From: Haloarcula sp. H-GB4
GTDB lineage: Archaea; Halobacteriota; Halobacteria; Halobacteriales; Haloarculaceae
Direction of reading: 5' to 3'
Length of the DNA stretch: 64,000 nt
NCBI RefSeq assembly: GCF_030848575.1
Contig: NZ_JAVDDX010000002.1
Coordinates: 806,001-870,000 of the forward strand
A model generated the notes under the pieces. It did not search any database. It was not told the origin of the DNA and saw only the letters and a program-made list of their open reading frames with translations. The position numbers and the translations under genes are program-made. Shown here one piece after another: positions 19,988 through 33,160 of this stretch. Every line of letters starts with the position of its first letter. The stretch's first letter is position 1.

Positions 19988-20425
19988 TTAGCTCACCACC
20001 ATCGTTTCGGCGATGCCGTTCTCGGCGACGACTTTCACCCGGTCAGGCTGACTACTGAGCGAGGTAACGGTAATCTCTAACCGCTCCTGTGACGCCCAGA
20101 TGTCCGTCGAACCGTTACCGTCGACAATCGTGCCATAGCCTGTCCGGTAGTTGTTATCGACCAGCAGGTCAGTTGCTTCGATCGACAGCGTCTCGGAACC
20201 GGTGTTGTCGACGGTCACGACGAGATTGTCGTTCCCGCTGCTGTTCCACGTCGCCGAGACAAGTGAGATGTCGGTGTTTTGCTGGTCGAGCAGTCGGTCT
20301 CGCTGGTCCTCGCGGGCGTCGTTGACGCGCTCGAAGCTGTTCGCGGTCGCGGAGTAGAACATCCCGAAGCCGATGAACGCGGCCACGAAAATGATGGCTG
20401 CCGAGCCGCTAACGCTGAATCCCAT
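19988..20425 (-). CDS. arlF: Archaellum stator protein ArlF (FlaF)
   Basis: A 145-residue protein starting at MGFSVSGSAAIIF. A longer upstream reading (to 20536) runs into the arlCE coding sequence and is rejected because the membrane helix then starts mid-protein. One helix (about 5-28) is followed by a coiled stretch (SFERVNDAREDQRDRLLDQQ) and a beta domain with VDNTGSETLSIEATDLLVD. ArlF anchors the motor to the S-layer by binding its protein. It overlaps the arlCE 3' end by 17 bases. Confidence 0.92.
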   Translation of the reverse strand: MGFSVSGSAAIIFVAAFIGFGMFYSATANSFERVNDAREDQRDRLLDQQNTDISLVSATWNSSGNDNLVVTVDNTGSETLSIEATDLLVDNNYRTGYGTIVDGNGSTDIWASQERLEITVTSLSSQPDRVKVVAENGIAETMVVS

Positions 20426-22067
20426 CGGAACCACCCCCCACCAGTTTCGAGAGCGCAACGGCGTCAGCGCCGCTGTCACTGTCAAGCTGTGAGATGTAGT
20501 GCAGGCTCTCCGTGTGGTGGTCGATAGACAGCCCATCCCCGGTGTCGTTCACGTCGTTGAAGCCGCGAAGGTACTCCTTGAGCTGGTCCGCGACCGACTC
20601 GTCGATCCAGTCGATAGTCTCGTAGTAGTCGATAGCGCGAGCCGTCTCACGGTAGCCCGAGTGCTGGACCAGGAATTCGAGCCACTCGACGATGATGAGG
20701 TCCGCCGCGAACCCTTCCGGCATCGTCGCCAAGTACGGTTTCCCGTCATCGTCAGCATCTGCGTCCGAGCCGTCGTCCGCCGTTGCCGCATCGCCGCTGC
20801 CGGTAGCCGCGGTGCCAGTCGGCTCGGGCTCTGGTTCCGGCTCTGGCTCGGGCTCTGGTTCCGGCTCAGGCTCGGCGACCGGTTCCGGCTCTGGGTCGGG
20901 TTCCGGTTCGGCTTCCGTAGCCGCCTCGGCCTCGTCAATCCCATCGTCCTCGATAACCTCATCAAAGAGGTCGTCGTCTTCCAGCCCGCCTGCATCGCCG
21001 TCCGAATCGTCTTCGCCCAGCAGATCATCGCCCTCGTCGGCCAGCGGGTCGTCATCATCGTCCGCGAGGAGGTCATCGTCGTCTGCTTCCCCCTCGGGTT
21101 CCTCACCCTCGGCCCACTCGGCGTCGCCGGACTCGTACTCGTCTTTGAGCTCTGCGAACGATTTGCCGCCGTCGCCGTCGTCGCTGTCCTCATCCATACT
21201 CTCCTCGTCGTCCATGCTCATCCCATCGTCCATGCTCATGTCGTCCTCCGTGTCGTCGAAATCGTCGAATTCTTCGTCGAACGACCCGCCGTCGTCCTCG
21301 AAGCCGCCCATGTCGTCGCCACCGTCGTCGGGAAACATATCGTCGACACCGCCATCATCCATCGACATGTCGCCACCAGTGTCCTCCGTCAGGTCTTCGT
21401 CGAAAAAGCCCTCTGCGTCGGCGTTGGCGACATCGTCATCGATGTCCTCCTCGGTATCGTCGCTCCCGTCGTCGTCGAACAGGCCGAAGGAGCCGCCGCC
21501 TTCGCCCATGCCGCCCATGCCGCCGTCAACGTCGTCGGCAAAGGGGTTGACGCCACGGGTGACCATCTCGTAGATGTCGAGCAGCTTCCGGACGTTCTCC
21601 TCGGTTTCTTCGACGGACTCGGAGATGCTCTCGTTTTCCGTCCGCACCGTGTTGACAGTTGAGGAGAGGCTCCCGACCTCATTTTCCAGTTCGTCGAGCC
21701 GGTGTTCCAGTTCGTCGGTGTCAGGCCCGCTCGCGTCTTCCATGTCGCCGAACTCGTCGTCACCGAACCCGCCCATGTCGTCACCGTCATCGTCGAGGCC
21801 GCCAAGGCCCCCGAGATCGTCGCCACCACCGCCGAGGTCGTCGCCACCGCCACCGTCGTCACCCATCAGGCCGCCGCCGTTGGCCATCCCGCCGCCACCG
21901 TCCTCGCTCGCGTCCCCGCTCTCGTCGTCCGACAGAATCGAGTCGAACATGTTCTTGATGCTCATACCAACCAGCCCGCCGGTCAACAGGACAAAGAGGG
22001 CTGGTGCCAGTCCAACCAGTTCCGGTGAAACGGCTGGAGCCAGTGGCACGAGAGCGAGACTACTCAT
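20409..22067 (-). CDS. arlCE: Archaellum switch/adaptor protein ArlCE (FlaC-FlaE fusion)
   Basis: A 552-residue fused protein. It comprises an N-terminal hydrophobic stretch (about 8-35), a FlaC-type coiled coil (about 120-175, with NEVGSLSSTVNTVRTENESI and LLDIYEMVTRGVNPF), a very long acidic and Gly-rich linker (about 175-420) and a C-terminal FlaD/E domain (about 440-510, with MPEGFAADLIIVEWLEFLVQ). It sits at the base of the archaellum and receives CheY through CheF. The linker includes runs of Glu-Pro, MSMDD repeats and DD/GG tracts and is much longer than usual. No separate ArlD gene is in the window. It starts after a 241-bp AT-rich spacer from cheD. Confidence 0.9.
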   Translation of the reverse strand: MSSLALVPLAPAVSPELVGLAPALFVLLTGGLVGMSIKNMFDSILSDDESGDASEDGGGGMANGGGLMGDDGGGGDDLGGGGDDLGGLGGLDDDGDDMGGFGDDEFGDMEDASGPDTDELEHRLDELENEVGSLSSTVNTVRTENESISESVEETEENVRKLLDIYEMVTRGVNPFADDVDGGMGGMGEGGGSFGLFDDDGSDDTEEDIDDDVANADAEGFFDEDLTEDTGGDMSMDDGGVDDMFPDDGGDDMGGFEDDGGSFDEEFDDFDDTEDDMSMDDGMSMDDEESMDEDSDDGDGGKSFAELKDEYESGDAEWAEGEEPEGEADDDDLLADDDDDPLADEGDDLLGEDDSDGDAGGLEDDDLFDEVIEDDGIDEAEAATEAEPEPDPEPEPVAEPEPEPEPEPEPEPEPEPTGTAATGSGDAATADDGSDADADDDGKPYLATMPEGFAADLIIVEWLEFLVQHSGYRETARAIDYYETIDWIDESVADQLKEYLRGFNDVNDTGDGLSIDHHTESLHYISQLDSDSGADAVALSKLVGGGSDGIQR

Positions 22068-22308
22068 CTCTTGTATCTCACGCTGTTTCTACTCTTGAAT
22101 ATTCCCCTTAGCGTATCATATTTGATAATAATATCCCATTTTCCCGGCACGGATACGGTAAATTAACGATCCAAGTACTAGCCAATTACATTTCATATTA
22201 ATTTCGGACGGAAAGCCAGGGAACAGAGTGTGGCAGTGCGGCCCCGGCAGACGAACGGCTGTCGCCCGTCTGACGCCAGATGTCAGACACAATTACGGCT
22301 CGCAGACA
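22068..22308 (-). promoter_or_regulatory. AT-rich promoter region of the arlCE-J operon
   Basis: The 241-bp gap between cheD and arlCE contains, from about 22090 to 22205, a strongly AT-rich segment (TATTATTATCAAATATGATA and related words on the minus strand) that stands out against the surrounding high-GC sequence. Candidate TATA boxes precede arlCE by about 40-70 bp. This suggests the arl operon has its own promoter and is not only read through from cheY-cheC-cheD. No hairpin or palindrome was found here that would mark an operator. Confidence 0.5.
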
Positions 22309-24407: not shown

Positions 24408-24492
24408 GCCTATCAAGCCTACATATCGTGATGAGTTAGATAAAGGTGTCCCGTAAATTATCGCGTGTGATATCGGTGGGCCCGAAACCCAG

Positions 24493-27166: not shown

Positions 27167-27742
27167 TCAGAGTTCAGCACCGTCGGCGTCTTCGACGGCC
27201 TGTAAGAGGTCAGCGATGGAATCATCCGGTGTCAGTTGCGTCGACCGGACGAGCTGTTTGATGACCCCTGGCGGGTAGCGAACTGGCACGTTCGACTCCG
27301 ACAGCAGAATACCCAGCACTTCTTCGACCGGTGTCGACCCATCCATCTGGCGACCGTACCAGAGCATGAAGCTCTCGAAAACGGTGACGATATCATTGGA
27401 GGCGAGCTGTTGCTGGTCGACGTCGCCGTCGAACTTCGCGGTCACGTCGAAGCCGTATCTGGCGTTGGAGTCGGCCATCTGTTCAGCAAGCCACTCGTGG
27501 ACGTTCGCATCGGAGAACTCAGGAGCTGACGGCTCCGGATCTGGTGCAGGAGACGGCGGGGATTCAGACGCCGAATCCGATGAAACGTGGTTCCCGTAGG
27601 AGTCGTCAGTGCGGACATCCGACGAAACGACATAACGACCCTCGTCGATTTCAGTAACGTGCTCGTCGTCGGCAATATCGAGCTCTTCAGGCGAGAGTAC
27701 CTTGCCCTCTTCTGGATTCGGTTCGTCTGACCGCCGAGCCAT
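27167..27742 (-). CDS. Conserved archaellum-cluster protein of unknown function
   Basis: A 191-residue soluble protein with three parts: an N-terminal acidic region containing EEGKVLSPEELDIADDEHV, which looks conserved, a Pro/Ser-rich disordered linker (about 60-90), and a C-terminal helical domain (about 90-185, VHEWLAEQMADSNARYGFDV onward). I recall similar proteins only from haloarchaeal archaellum clusters. It has no membrane segment and no recognised enzymatic motif. It lies between the secreted protein gene and the archaellin genes on the same strand. Confidence 0.65.
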   Translation of the reverse strand: MARRSDEPNPEEGKVLSPEELDIADDEHVTEIDEGRYVVSSDVRTDDSYGNHVSSDSASESPPSPAPDPEPSAPEFSDANVHEWLAEQMADSNARYGFDVTAKFDGDVDQQQLASNDIVTVFESFMLWYGRQMDGSTPVEEVLGILLSESNVPVRYPPGVIKQLVRSTQLTPDDSIADLLQAVEDADGAEL

Positions 27743-27831: not shown

Positions 27832-28458
27832 TTAGAGGCTGACTGCGGAGTTACCAGACAGAGTCTCCGGGACGACCAGCCGAGCGGTCGTCGTGCCACC
27901 GGATTGGGTGTTCAGGCGAACCGTCGCCGTCTCACCCTCGCCGAGACCGTCACCGTCGCCGCTTCCGCGGATCTGTTCAGCGCTGAAGATGATCGTCGCA
28001 CGGTCGGACGGGTCGTTCAGAACTTGGCTCCCTGAAATCGAGTCGTCGTCGTCCTGAACATCATTGACAGCGAAGGAGGACCCGTCGGGGTTTGGCGTAT
28101 TACTGTATCCAGCCGAGGTGAGGTCGTACGAGCCAGTAGAGTCAACCCATTGAGCGATCGTACTACCGATGTCGATGTTCCCTGCACCGGGTGCCTTCTT
28201 GACGGTTAGCTTGACCGTGTTGATCGTGCTGCTGGATGATTGGATGTCTTCACCGACGGCGTTGACGAGCTGCAGTCGGTTCGTCACTTGGTCACTGCTC
28301 TGTTGTCCGGTTTCCTCTGCACTGCTCTGGAGGAAGCCGGCCGTGTTGATCAGGACGCCCGCAGCAATCGCCGCCACCAGCACCATCGCGATGAACACGA
28401 TCAGGGTGCCGATACCGACCTGCCCGCGGTCGTCGTCGTTCGTTAGTTCCGTTAGCAT
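27832..28458 (-). CDS. flgA: Archaellin A (second of the tandem pair)
   Basis: A 208-residue archaellin. The start is [17 protein letters not shown]; the prepilin peptidase site lies between Gly12 and Gln13, followed by the hydrophobic assembly helix (about 13-40) common to archaellins. The C-terminal half is a soluble beta domain ending SGNSAVSL. No N-x-S/T sequon is present in the whole protein. It is nearly identical to the upstream copy except in the middle (about 110-175). It has its own promoter region, which repeats that of the other copy. Confidence 0.95.
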
Positions 28459-28540
28459 TGTTGATCCGGGTCTGTCTGACCCTATCAGTTGACTCTTTTC
28501 ACTGGTAATAATACCTCCTCTCAAATTATGCGATTTGATA
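28456..28540 (-). promoter_or_regulatory. Duplicated promoter and leader of archaellin A
   Basis: An 85-bp segment ending at the archaellin A start codon is strongly similar to 29404-29488 at archaellin B. It contains, on the minus strand, TATCAAATCGCATAATTTG (TATA-like), GAGGAGGTATTATTACC with a Shine-Dalgarno-like GGAGG about 55 bp before the ATG, and a 5-bp hairpin GGGTC-AGACA-GACCC (28468-28482) just before the ATG. Similarity to the second copy stops beyond the AT-rich box. Confidence 0.7.
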
Positions 28541-28782: not shown

Positions 28783-29406
28783 TTAGAGGCTGACTGCGGA
28801 GTTACCAGACAGAGTCTCCGGGACGACTAGCCGAGCGGTCGTCGTGCCACCGGACTGCGTGTTCAGGCGAACCGTCGCCGTCTCACCCTCACCGAGGCCG
28901 TCATCAGCAGCGCCACCGCGGATCTGTTCAGCGCTAAAGATGATCACCGCGCGGTCAGACGGGTCGTTCAGGACCTGGCTGCCTGAAATCGATCCGTCAT
29001 CATCCTGGATATCAGCGACGGAGAACTCGCTTGAGCCTGGGTTACCGTCGTAGGTTCCTTCGTAGGTGAGGTCGTACGAGCCACTGGAGTCGACCCACTG
29101 GGCGATTGTACTGCCGATATCGATGTTCCCCGCACCGGGTGCCTTCTTGACGGTTAGCTTGACCGTGTCGATCGTGCTGCTGGACGATCGAATGTCTTCA
29201 CCGACGGCGTTGACGAGCTGCAGTCGGTTCGTCACTTGGTCACTGCTCTGTTGTCCGGTTTCCTCTGCACTGCTCTGGAGGAACCCAGCCGTGTTGATCA
29301 GGACGCCCGCAGCGATCGCCGCCACCAGCACCATCGCGATGAACACGATCAGGGTGCCGATACCGACCTGCCCGCGGTCGTCGTCGTTCGTTAGTTCCGT
29401 TAGCAT
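28783..29406 (-). CDS. flgA: Archaellin B (first of the tandem pair)
   Basis: A 207-residue archaellin that is a near copy of the 27832-28458 gene. The start is [17 protein letters not shown] with the same prepilin peptidase site and assembly helix. The variable region (about 110-170, [20 protein letters not shown]) differs from its twin, while the last 35 residues are identical. No N-x-S/T sequon is found. The pair looks like a tandem duplication with sequence homogenisation at both ends. Its leader carries the same hairpin and GGAGG block as the other copy. Confidence 0.95.
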
Positions 29407-29488
29407 TGTTAATCCGGGTCTGTCTGACCCTATGCAACCGTTCTTTTCGCCAGTAATAATACCTCCCCCCAAATTATGCTACTTGATA
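29404..29488 (-). promoter_or_regulatory. Duplicated promoter and leader of archaellin B
   Basis: This block is colinear and of equal length with the one at 28456-28540. It has the same hairpin (GGGTC-AGACA-GACCC, 29416-29430), the GGAGG motif (29462-29466 on the plus strand as CCTCC) with TATTATTAC beside it, and the TATA-like GCATAATTTG. The differences lie mainly in the spacer between hairpin and GGAGG. Confidence 0.7.
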
Positions 29489-29783
29489 ATAGGTTGCTGA
29501 GCGTCTGAGGAGTGTATTTTCCAATAGAACGCCTATCATTTGGTCTGAGGAAGATAGCTGAACCATGTCGGCCCTAAGAATCAGATTTAATTGCTTCTGT
29601 AGGTCGGTATCAGCGGTGGAAATAGCCGGTCGTCCGGCGTGTGGTCGGAGGTATCGTGTTGCGTTCAAACTGGTGAATGGTGCGGTCTGTAGAAGAGAAT
29701 ATATTGAAACCGTGTCGACAGAGAGACCAAGCACAGAGAAATCAGCTCACAGGCAGGTCAGCTGATGTAGTCGAGGTATATAC
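29489..29783. other. Intergenic region, no gene seen
   Basis: About 295 bases between the archaellin B promoter block and the end of the small membrane-protein gene contain only short, unconvincing reading frames. Some AT-rich words (AGAGAATATATTG near 29695) could serve as promoters. No repeats or stable hairpins were noticed. Confidence 0.35.
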
Positions 29784-30059
29784 TCACTCGTACGTGACCA
29801 GACTGTACATTACGAACAGATAGCCGAAAGTCGTCAGCCCACTGTTGACTAACAACAACGAGCGGACACCCTCGAAATCGTTGATGAACGCGCTAATCAT
29901 TGTCGCGGCCGCGCCCGCGATTGCAAGCGAAAATCCCACTGAGAGGTGAAGCATCGCCTCCCGGGATGTCTGGACGTACGCGCGCATGGCCATCCCGACC
30001 ATTGTCAGTCCGGCTACGACGAACACAAGCGTCGATATGGCATAGAGAAGTTCTATCAT
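29784..30059 (-). CDS. Small three-helix membrane protein paired with a winged-helix gene
   Basis: A 91-residue protein with three hydrophobic helices (about 1-27, 40-62 and 69-90), resembling the small membrane proteins (DUF7521-like) that occur beside ArsR-like winged-helix genes throughout haloarchaea. The ATG at 30059 is preferred to a GTG two codons upstream, whose frame would overlap the palindrome. The helix-turn-helix gene is 83 bp upstream on the same strand. A TATA-like box and a perfect 16-bp palindrome sit directly upstream of the start. Function is unknown; a membrane sensor or regulator partner is possible. Confidence 0.72.
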   Translation of the reverse strand: MIELLYAISTLVFVVAGLTMVGMAMRAYVQTSREAMLHLSVGFSLAIAGAAATMISAFINDFEGVRSLLLVNSGLTTFGYLFVMYSLVTYE

Positions 30060-30060
30060 C

Positions 30061-30076
30061 AGCACTGTACAGTGCT
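30061..30076. promoter_or_regulatory. Perfect 16-bp palindrome at the start of the small membrane-protein gene
   Basis: AGCACTGTACAGTGCT is fully self-complementary and lies one base before the ATG at 30059. A TATA-like TTTAATAA (minus strand, about 30089-30096) is 15-25 bases further upstream, so the expected transcription start falls within the palindrome. This is the position of a repressor operator. The neighbouring winged-helix protein is the obvious candidate ligand, by inference. Confidence 0.6.
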
Positions 30077-30142
30077 ACAGCGAACCCGTTATTAAATCCA
30101 TGCTCGAAAATATCTTTCGTGATAACGCTGAGAAGAGAGCCT

Positions 30143-30478
30143 CTAGCGCTCGGATAGGGTCCGCCACGCCTCGTCGAGTTTGTTGGTCACTTCCGACCGC
30201 TCTTCGATGTGGACAGTCAGTTCATCGTCGAAGTCGACCCGGACTTCGTCCACGTTCCGCCGGTATACTTTGATACGTCGGCGGTCATCAGAGAGAATAT
30301 TATCGTGGAGTTCTAGGAGGTCATGTTCGGTCAGTTCATCGATCCGTCGATAACACGTCGCGATGGGGATTCCAAGTTCGTCGCTGAGTTCCTGTGCGGA
30401 GACCGGTTCATCCGTCGCGTCGAGAATTTCGGCACTGTATTTATTGCCAAGCGTCTGAAGAATCTCCCCTGAATCCAT
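30143..30478 (-). CDS. Winged-helix transcriptional regulator (ArsR-like)
   Basis: A 111-residue winged-helix protein. The HTH is at about residues 26-55 (SAQELSDELGIPIATCYRRIDEL), followed by a wing and a dimerisation helix. The ATG at 30478 is chosen over a TTG three codons upstream. It precedes the small membrane-protein gene by 83 bp, and the pair is a common haloarchaeal arrangement. Lying beside the archaellin genes, it may regulate archaellum or membrane-protein expression. An AT-rich promoter (TTTATTATTTGATAACG) lies just upstream of its start, giving an almost leaderless transcript. Confidence 0.8.
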   Translation of the reverse strand: MDSGEILQTLGNKYSAEILDATDEPVSAQELSDELGIPIATCYRRIDELTEHDLLELHDNILSDDRRRIKVYRRNVDEVRVDFDDELTVHIEERSEVTNKLDEAWRTLSER

Positions 30479-30634
30479 CGTTATCAAATAATAAATTCAG
30501 TCGATAATAAAGCTATCGCCTGTGATACCGAGTGAAAGAGAGACAAACACGCACCGCGGGACGTTTGTACGGAAACGGCGTTCTGTGTCGCTGTATCCGT
30601 CGTTCTCCGGAGTAATAATGACTCTATTCTATCG

Positions 30635-31360
30635 TTAAATTGGTGATTCTTCCTCGCTCATCATCGAGAAGGCGCTGGCGTTCTGGTGGACATCGATACC
30701 GCCGTGGTCAATCTCCATCGGATAGATATCCGTCTCAATATTCTGCTTTCGCATCTTGGCGACCCAGACGTATCTGTTCACGCCGGTATCAGTCGGGGTC
30801 TGGATGAGGTAGATGTTGCCGTCAGTTAGATAGTTCTCCAGTCCGATGTCGGTGTCCGGGAAGACGGCCCCTTGCTCGTTGGTCATCAGCGTCGTGAGAC
30901 CGCTGTCGCTGAGGATGTCAGTGAACTTCAGGAGATACGTCCGCTTCTCCTTCTCGTTTTCGAAGAACAATTCGAACATGGCAAGCGAGTCAAGCACCAG
31001 TCGATCGTAGTCACCGTCTTCGAGTTCCTCCAGGAGAATATCCAGCGAGGACGTGAAGTCGTTCTCGCGCAGGAGGACCTGCTTATCGTACACTTTGATG
31101 TCGCCGTTATCGACGTACTCTTGCCAGTTTTCGAAGCCGATGGATTCGGCGGCCTCCTGAAGGTCCGACTCGTCTTCCTCGAAGGAGAGATAGATGCCCT
31201 TCTCGTCGTACTTTTCGACGCCGTTGTAGATGTACTGGAGACAGAGGATCGATTTCCCGGCACCGGGGTTGCCGCTCACCAGTGTCGTCGAGTTCTTCAC
31301 AATGCCGCCGTTCAGAATGTCGTCGAGGCCCTCGATCCCCGTTTTGGTTTGCTCAATCAT
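30635..31360 (-). CDS. cirA: KaiC/RecA-like ATPase (CirA-like)
   Basis: A 241-residue single-domain RecA-family ATPase of the KaiC branch. Walker A GNPGAGKS is at residues 30-37, the catalytic EE at 61-62 (YLSFEEDES) and Walker B LVLD at about 121-124. A homologous KaiC-like protein (CirA) encoded in the haloarchaeal arl/che cluster is known to influence motility and archaellum expression in Haloferax; identity with CirA is inferred from family and location. It lies 88 bp downstream of cheW on the same strand and probably shares its transcript. The start is MIEQTKTGIEGLDDIL. Confidence 0.85.
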   Translation of the reverse strand: MIEQTKTGIEGLDDILNGGIVKNSTTLVSGNPGAGKSILCLQYIYNGVEKYDEKGIYLSFEEDESDLQEAAESIGFENWQEYVDNGDIKVYDKQVLLRENDFTSSLDILLEELEDGDYDRLVLDSLAMFELFFENEKEKRTYLLKFTDILSDSGLTTLMTNEQGAVFPDTDIGLENYLTDGNIYLIQTPTDTGVNRYVWVAKMRKQNIETDIYPMEIDHGGIDVHQNASAFSMMSEEESPI

Positions 31361-31448: not shown

Positions 31449-31883
31449 TCAGTCACCAGCGTGGACGATGGCGGGGTCCACCCAGATAACAAAACTGTCA
31501 TCTCGCTTGATGACGCCCCGAATTGAGCCGGCATCGTTCGCGGGGGACTGGTCGACCTGCTCCGGAGTGACCTGCACGACCTGATACACCTCATCGACGA
31601 GCCAGCCGGCTGCGCCCTGTTCCTCGACGATCTCTGGGTCGAAGACGATAATTCGCTTCTCCGCACCCTCGTCTCCGATGCCGAAGACGACCTTGGGGTC
31701 GACGATTGATGTCGTGCGCCCGCGAAGGTCCATGACACCACGGACGTGTGGCGGGGCGTTCGGGACGGACGTGAGTTCGCCGATATCGACGATCTCAGTC
31801 ACGTAGTCGATACTCACGCAGTACGTTTCCGAGCCGAGCTGGAACTCGAGTACTTGGCCGGTGGTGGCTGACTGTGCTGCCAT
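31449..31883 (-). CDS. cheW: Chemotaxis coupling protein CheW
   Basis: A 144-residue CheW that links receptors to CheA. Visible signatures are LEFQLGSETYCVSIDYVTEIV (about 12-32), SVPNAPPHVRGVMDLRG (about 39-55) and the SIRGVIKRDDSFVIWVD end. It is transcribed away from cheB across a 170-bp divergent region. Downstream on the same strand is the KaiC-like gene. A TATA-like TTTATG lies about 35 bp upstream of the ATG. Confidence 0.95.
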   Translation of the reverse strand: MAAQSATTGQVLEFQLGSETYCVSIDYVTEIVDIGELTSVPNAPPHVRGVMDLRGRTTSIVDPKVVFGIGDEGAEKRIIVFDPEIVEEQGAAGWLVDEVYQVVQVTPEQVDQSPANDAGSIRGVIKRDDSFVIWVDPAIVHAGD

Positions 31884-32053
31884 TGCGGTTCTTATCCAAA
31901 CTGTCGCGGATAGTGGCGCATAAAGGTGCCTGCTGGGCTATCAACTTTGATTACGTGGGCGGAGTATTTATTTCGGGGCCGGACGGGATTTGGAAGTAGG
32001 TATGAGGATGTCTCGTTCGCCGATGTCTCCTGTCCGACGGGAGCGTTGGTGAT
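31884..32053. promoter_or_regulatory. Divergent cheW/cheB promoter region
   Basis: This 170-bp region separates cheW (minus) and cheB (plus). For cheB, TATTTATTT at 31965-31973 is a strong TATA candidate, placing the transcript start near 31998 and giving a leader of about 55 bases. For cheW, a TTTATG word near 31918-31924 lies about 35 bp before the start. No palindrome between the two was noticed. Confidence 0.55.
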
Positions 32054-33160
32054 ATGGCAGATGGTGTCCGCGCCGTGGTCGCAGACGACTCTCACTTCAT
32101 GCGGAGTGTCATCTCTGATATCCTCAGTGATGGCGGTATTGACGTCGTCGCGCAGGCGCGTGACGGCGAGGAGGCAGTGTCGGCCGTTATCGAACACAAA
32201 CCGGACGTCGTGACGATGGATGTCGAGATGCCGGTAATGAACGGCATCGAGGCGACGGAGCGAATCATGGCCGAGTCTCCGACGCCGGTGTTGATGCTGT
32301 CGGCCCACACCGACGAAAACGCCGATGTGACGTTCGAAGCACTCGATAAGGGTGCGGTCGACTTCTTCACCAAGCCCGGTGGTGAGGTGTCGATGGAGAT
32401 GTCACGCCTGAAAGACCAGCTGGTCGAGATGGTCAGCTCCGTCGCGGCGGTCGATGTCGGCGCGACGCGCAGCCGCAGCGGGACAAGCAGCGACAATGGA
32501 GCAGCAACGACGGCCGGCGGCTCAGCTACTGGCCGGAGGGAAACCGGGGGCTCGTCAAGTCAGGCGAGCTACGTTGCGAACCCGACGCTCGTCATCGGCT
32601 CTTCGACCGGCGGCCCGAAGATGGTGGAACAGGTAATGGAGAATCTCCCCATTGAGGCCGATCTACGGGTGCTCATCATCCAGCACATGCCGGAGGGGTT
32701 CACCGGCCGGTTCGCCGAGCGGATCAACACGCGAAGCGATTACGAGGTCCGGGAGGCCACCGACGGGGCGCGCATCGGCGGCGGCGAAGGCCTTGTCGCC
32801 GCCGGTGACCGACACATGGAGGTCAAGAACTACCGGAACGGCCGACTGCGGACGAAGCTGACACAAGACGAACCGGTCAACAGTGTCCGTCCGGCCGTCG
32901 ACGTGACTATGCGAACAGCCGCGGAGACGATCGACGACCCGCTCGTCGGCCTCATCCTCACCGGGATGGGCGAAGACGGCGCAGACGGAATTCGGCGGAT
33001 CAAGCAGGCCGGTGGCAAGACCATCGCACAGGACGAGGCCACGTCCGCGGTGTACGGCATGCCAAAGCGCGCCGCCGAAACAGGCTGTGTGGACACTGTC
33101 TTGCCTATCGACGACATTGCGGACGGCATTATCGACACGATTACCACTGAGGTGACCTGA
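32054..33160 (+). CDS. cheB: Protein-glutamate methylesterase CheB
   Basis: A 368-residue CheB with an N-terminal receiver (D11, D12, phosphoacceptor D56, K107), a Ser/Gly/Thr-rich linker (about 138-175) and the methylesterase domain with catalytic S184 (GSSTGGP), H211 (IIQHMPEG) and D308 (TGMGEDGADG). It removes methyl groups from receptors and may deamidate them. It is the first gene of the plus-strand cheB-cheA-cheR run, with its stop 2 bp before the cheA start. Confidence 0.96.
   Translation: MADGVRAVVADDSHFMRSVISDILSDGGIDVVAQARDGEEAVSAVIEHKPDVVTMDVEMPVMNGIEATERIMAESPTPVLMLSAHTDENADVTFEALDKGAVDFFTKPGGEVSMEMSRLKDQLVEMVSSVAAVDVGATRSRSGTSSDNGAATTAGGSATGRRETGGSSSQASYVANPTLVIGSSTGGPKMVEQVMENLPIEADLRVLIIQHMPEGFTGRFAERINTRSDYEVREATDGARIGGGEGLVAAGDRHMEVKNYRNGRLRTKLTQDEPVNSVRPAVDVTMRTAAETIDDPLVGLILTGMGEDGADGIRRIKQAGGKTIAQDEATSAVYGMPKRAAETGCVDTVLPIDDIADGIIDTITTEVT

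Follow-up and report, generated by a model that had tools for sequence, protein, structure and literature searches.

What controls the small membrane-protein gene that lies beside the archaellin genes of Haloarcula sp. H-GB4? Within the window analysed here (64,000 nucleotides), a perfect 16-bp palindrome, AGCACTGTACAGTGCT, stands immediately upstream of this gene, and an earlier note had put it forward as a plausible binding site of the adjacent winged-helix protein. Sequence, conservation, gene order and motif enrichment were observed directly at the locus. It is very probable that this is the CsmR/CirA system of motility control in its Haloarcula version, that the winged-helix protein would bind a different set of sites, and that the palindrome is a chance, lineage-restricted feature. 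The genes at the centre of the locus are as follows.

30635-31360, minus strand: KaiC-like gene (PF06745), CirA orthologue by position and domain
30143-30478, minus strand: winged-helix regulator of 111 aa (HTH_20), taken as the CsmR orthologue from its domain, size and neighbouring genes
30061-30076, no strand: perfect 16-bp palindrome AGCACTGTACAGTGCT, overlapping the GTG at which DUF7521 could alternatively start
29784-30059, minus strand: DUF7521 small membrane protein of 91 aa (PF24365), which may start at GTG 30065
28783-29406, minus strand: archaellin gene, first copy (PF01917)
27832-28458, minus strand: archaellin gene, second copy (PF01917)

A probable CsmR/CirA locus in Haloarcula

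CsmR (hvo_1209) was described in 2026 as a 13-kDa winged-helix regulator of motility and shape in Haloferax volcanii (PMC13286277). Its gene lies upstream of arlA1 and arlA2, and the protein acts with the KaiC-like CirA (hvo_1212) (PMC13286277). Binding and motility control by CsmR have been shown in H. volcanii, where ChIP-seq gave the motif TATCA(N4)TGATA, located upstream of BRE and TATA (PMC13286277). Deletion of csmR makes its targets rise but abolishes motility; from where the sites lie, the authors inferred activation (PMC13286277). Another winged-helix regulator, EarA of Methanococcus and Pyrococcus, is described as working close to the BRE at archaellum promoters (PMC13286277). CsmR resembles EarA, by that description, in being a winged-helix regulator at archaellum promoters, but according to the CsmR authors the two have no similarity in sequence or structure (PMC13286277). 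No solved structures with sequence similarity to CsmR were found.

The Haloarcula locus resembles that of H. volcanii in two respects. A winged-helix protein of about 13 kDa (111 aa; HTH_20 match with E 7.4e-13) is encoded beside two archaellins and a KaiC-like gene, and TATCA(N4)TGATA boxes precede TATA elements at motility and chemotaxis genes, several of them off by one or two bases. The winged-helix gene lies between the KaiC-family gene and the DUF7521 gene, with the two archaellins beyond DUF7521. The earlier note had suggested a local regulatory switch between the archaellins and the KaiC-like gene, and the domains, sizes and neighbourhood indeed fit CsmR and CirA. In Haloarcula, unlike in H. 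volcanii, csmR and cirA share a strand, and between csmR and the archaellins lies a DUF7521 gene preceded by a conserved box of its own. The linkage of csmR, cirA and the archaellins recurs among the Haloarculaceae, and a rearranged form occurs in other families.

CsmR-type boxes in the motility cluster

Where would CsmR bind? The window was scanned for sites with at least 8 of the 10 consensus bases and an AT-rich octamer 10-17 bp downstream; this mismatch-tolerant scan covered the 64 kb. Nine matches were obtained, against 0.13 expected from simulations based on whole-window base composition, which may understate matches in AT-rich intergenic DNA. Twenty-nine motifs with permuted half-sites gave at most three matches each in the window, a control that answers the objection about AT-rich composition. 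Seven of the nine boxes precede motility or regulatory genes, and the boxes and the further genes concerned are listed below. Apart from cheW, which matches PF01584, the arl and che genes were named from reading their translations.

30514-30527, minus strand: box TATCACAGGCGATA, upstream of csmR (predicted autoregulation)
30111-30124, minus strand: box TATCACGAAAGATA, matching the consensus at 9 of 10 positions, ahead of the DUF7521 promoter
30090-30097, minus strand: DUF7521 TATA box ATTTAATA, unchanged in 15 species
29475-29488, minus strand: box TATCAAGTAGCATA, with 8 of 10 consensus positions, preceding the first archaellin
28527-28540, minus strand: box TATCAAATCGCATA, with 8 of 10 consensus positions, preceding the second archaellin
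31939-31952, plus strand: box TATCAACTTTGATT, in the divergent cheW/cheB promoter region; the same box occurs in many relatives
31449-31883, minus strand: cheW (PF01584)
32054-33160, plus strand: cheB-like response regulator with a methylesterase-like C-terminus
24459-24472, minus strand: box TATCACACGCGATA, before a cheY-like gene starting at about 24407
22114-22127, minus strand: box TATCAAATATGATA, perfect CsmR consensus, before the first arl operon gene
20409-22067: first arl operon gene, arlCE-like

The two weaker boxes are at 29608-29621 and at 28497 on the plus strand. At the former, on the minus strand some 200 bp ahead of the first archaellin, TTCCACCGCTGATA is followed by AATTAAAT; several relatives have a similar element upstream of the archaellin, which might serve as an additional promoter.

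The exact composite of box and TATA occurs at three places in the 4.19-Mb genome, and the reversed control pattern occurs at none. A perfect box with TATA was also found at C2:176209-176243 (minus strand), before a gene for a pilin-like surface protein divergent from rps15. This gene is considered a weak candidate target, because the box is of TATTA type in close relatives and missing further out. Applied to the corresponding loci of relatives, the same scan recovered the DUF7521 box in 56 of 67; for the csmR box the figure was only 38 of 90. This low recovery counts against the CsmR reading, as do the two archaellin boxes with no more than 8 matching positions of 10.

Is the palindrome an operator?

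The palindrome is separated by a single base from the ATG of DUF7521 (30059-30057), as the earlier note had stated, and the TATA-like ATTTAATA lies upstream, 13 bp past the palindrome. An in-frame GTG (30065-30063), an alternative start of the gene, lies inside the palindrome, 31 nt downstream of the first T in TTTAATA; judged from the sequence, a leaderless DUF7521 transcript would begin at this codon. The CsmR-type box TATCACGAAAGATA is 35-48 bp further upstream than the palindrome.

Perfect symmetry across a predicted transcription start would suit a lineage-specific operator at which CsmR, or some other regulator, blocks initiation. However, in first-order Markov simulations of the window, perfect palindromes of 16 bp or longer arose 1.8 times per 64 kb on average, one or more being present in 83% of the simulated windows, so that the palindrome alone is unremarkable. 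It is also unlike the published CsmR motif. No second match was present in the window even with up to three mismatches, and the genome-wide search that the earlier note had proposed for the 16-mer and its near matches gave one exact copy. Within three mismatches there were 13 matches, below the 18 obtained with the reversed control pattern. As a regulon motif the palindrome was rejected after searches of the genome and the genus yielded no set of copies. At the other winged-helix/DUF7521 pairs, a search for palindromes returned one 12-bp case only and no similar site.

How do the palindrome and the box compare in conservation? In 30 loci of the same genus and in named relatives, the constant element between csmR and DUF7521 is TTATCA-N5-GATA with a TATA box about 14 bp later. 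Fifty-one distinct promoter sequences carry this composite; because they were collected by the motif, its fixed letters are invariant in them by construction. A less biased test was made with parsimony change counts in a clade of 15 close Haloarcula species with equal spacing. The box half-sites and the BRE/TATA segment of the DUF7521 promoter had no changes, against 1.4 changes per site for the N5 between the half-sites and 0.29 for the DUF7521 coding start. The palindrome had 15 changes over its 16 sites (0.94 per site), and none of these restored symmetry. It is symmetric in seven of the 15 species, has one pair broken in six and is lost in two; it is absent from every relative compared outside the clade. 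The earlier note had itself named a lack of conservation at orthologous loci as a refutation, and on this record the operator reading is not supported. The intact symmetry in seven close species notwithstanding, an operator here is highly improbable, and the palindrome is most likely incidental.

To which regulator do the boxes belong?

The genome holds many related winged-helix genes, which raises the possibility that the gene at this locus is a mere paralogue of csmR and that the boxes belong to another regulator. Domain, size, gene order and motif are the grounds for orthology to HVO_1209. Against a paralogue, the best match to the winged-helix protein in genomes of the genus is at this locus, with about 88-100% identity, and the next match reaches about 30-37%; the gene order also agrees with the published CsmR locus. 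One relative (locus L168) has the order csmR-arlA-arlA-cirA given for H. volcanii, with the archaellins directly after csmR and cirA convergent. Its csmR-like protein (112 aa) is 59% identical and has a nearly identical recognition segment, IPIATCYRRI; TATCAGTCTTGATA precedes the first archaellin. A paralogue is highly improbable, and the gene is treated here as csmR.

The gene divergent from csmR at L168 (2700-3359, minus strand) resembles the DUF7500 gene of the window (27167-27742). For this reason, hvo_1208 may belong to DUF7500 and not to DUF7521.

The palindromic copy near rps15

The genome-wide search gave two matches to AGCACTGTACAGTGCT with two mismatches, one of which, GGCACTGTACAGTGCC, is itself palindromic and lies upstream of rps15. 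It holds the only other genomic copy of the palindrome core, three bases 3' of the S15-Halobacteria leader (RF03143; C2:176346-176429). After these three bases comes an inverted repeat with arms that vary between species, which may extend the known leader structure. The leader is an RNA element that belongs to a different gene, and no counterpart of it is known at the DUF7521 locus. A common function of the two sites was considered and rejected; the rps15 copy adjoins a known RNA leader and the likeness is taken as coincidence. Another reading makes the palindrome an RNA hairpin at the 5' terminus of the DUF7521 mRNA, on the model of inverted repeats that may function near the rps15 leader. 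It draws on this near-copy and on the presence of the varying repeat at the rps15 site in many relatives, but it is scarcely credible, given that symmetry is lost in close species and that the predicted transcript would lack one arm because its start falls inside the palindrome.

DUF7521 genes are paired with winged-helix genes

What is the role of DUF7521? No literature on this family was found. The genome contains ten matches, nine of them above the Pfam cut-off, which agrees with the earlier remark that pairs of this type are common. In addition to the copy at the csmR locus, they are located as follows.

C1:366890-367114: DUF7521 copy
C1:839388-839633: DUF7521 copy
C2:107293-107986: DUF7521 copies
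C2:889291-889548: DUF7521 copy
C2:1120973-1121233: DUF7521 copy
C2:1405192-1405419: DUF7521 copy
C2:1453929-1454189: DUF7521 copy
C4:10002-10238: DUF7521 copy

In nine cases the gene comes immediately after a winged-helix gene of the same strand; the tenth copy follows a member of that group. Every upstream protein matches HTH_20 or a related winged-helix model. As all ten follow a winged-helix gene or a paired copy, the sequence data suggest that DUF7521 may be a membrane partner of winged-helix regulators. The ends of the two genes often overlap or lie within a few bases, and the overlapping ends look as if they were translationally coupled. At the csmR locus the gap is 83 bp and contains DUF7521's own box and promoter. 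No fusions of the two proteins were present in five long reading frames examined.

It is tentatively proposed that the pairs constitute a haloarchaeal family of two-part regulators coupled to the membrane, in which DUF7521 might sense a signal and control its partner. At this locus, a membrane signal might then pass to CsmR and on to motility, with CsmR acting in turn on the DUF7521 gene.

A predicted role of CsmR in the motility cluster

We infer that CsmR in Haloarcula, probably as a dimer, binds the TATCA(N4)TGATA-type boxes located 10-16 bp upstream of AT-rich TATA-like elements. From a position just upstream of BRE and TATA, it would most likely modulate initiation. The predicted targets are csmR itself, DUF7521, both archaellins, the arl operon, cheY and cheW/cheB. 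Since boxes precede all of these genes, CsmR and CirA together would govern the output of the entire motility cluster.

These predictions extend the CsmR regulon from Haloferax to Haloarcula, with concrete candidate binding sites within one cluster. New to this system are the likely autoregulation of csmR and a conserved candidate target in DUF7521, and a misleading operator candidate has been removed. The pairing of DUF7521 with winged-helix proteins may offer an entry point to signal sensing by regulators of this kind.
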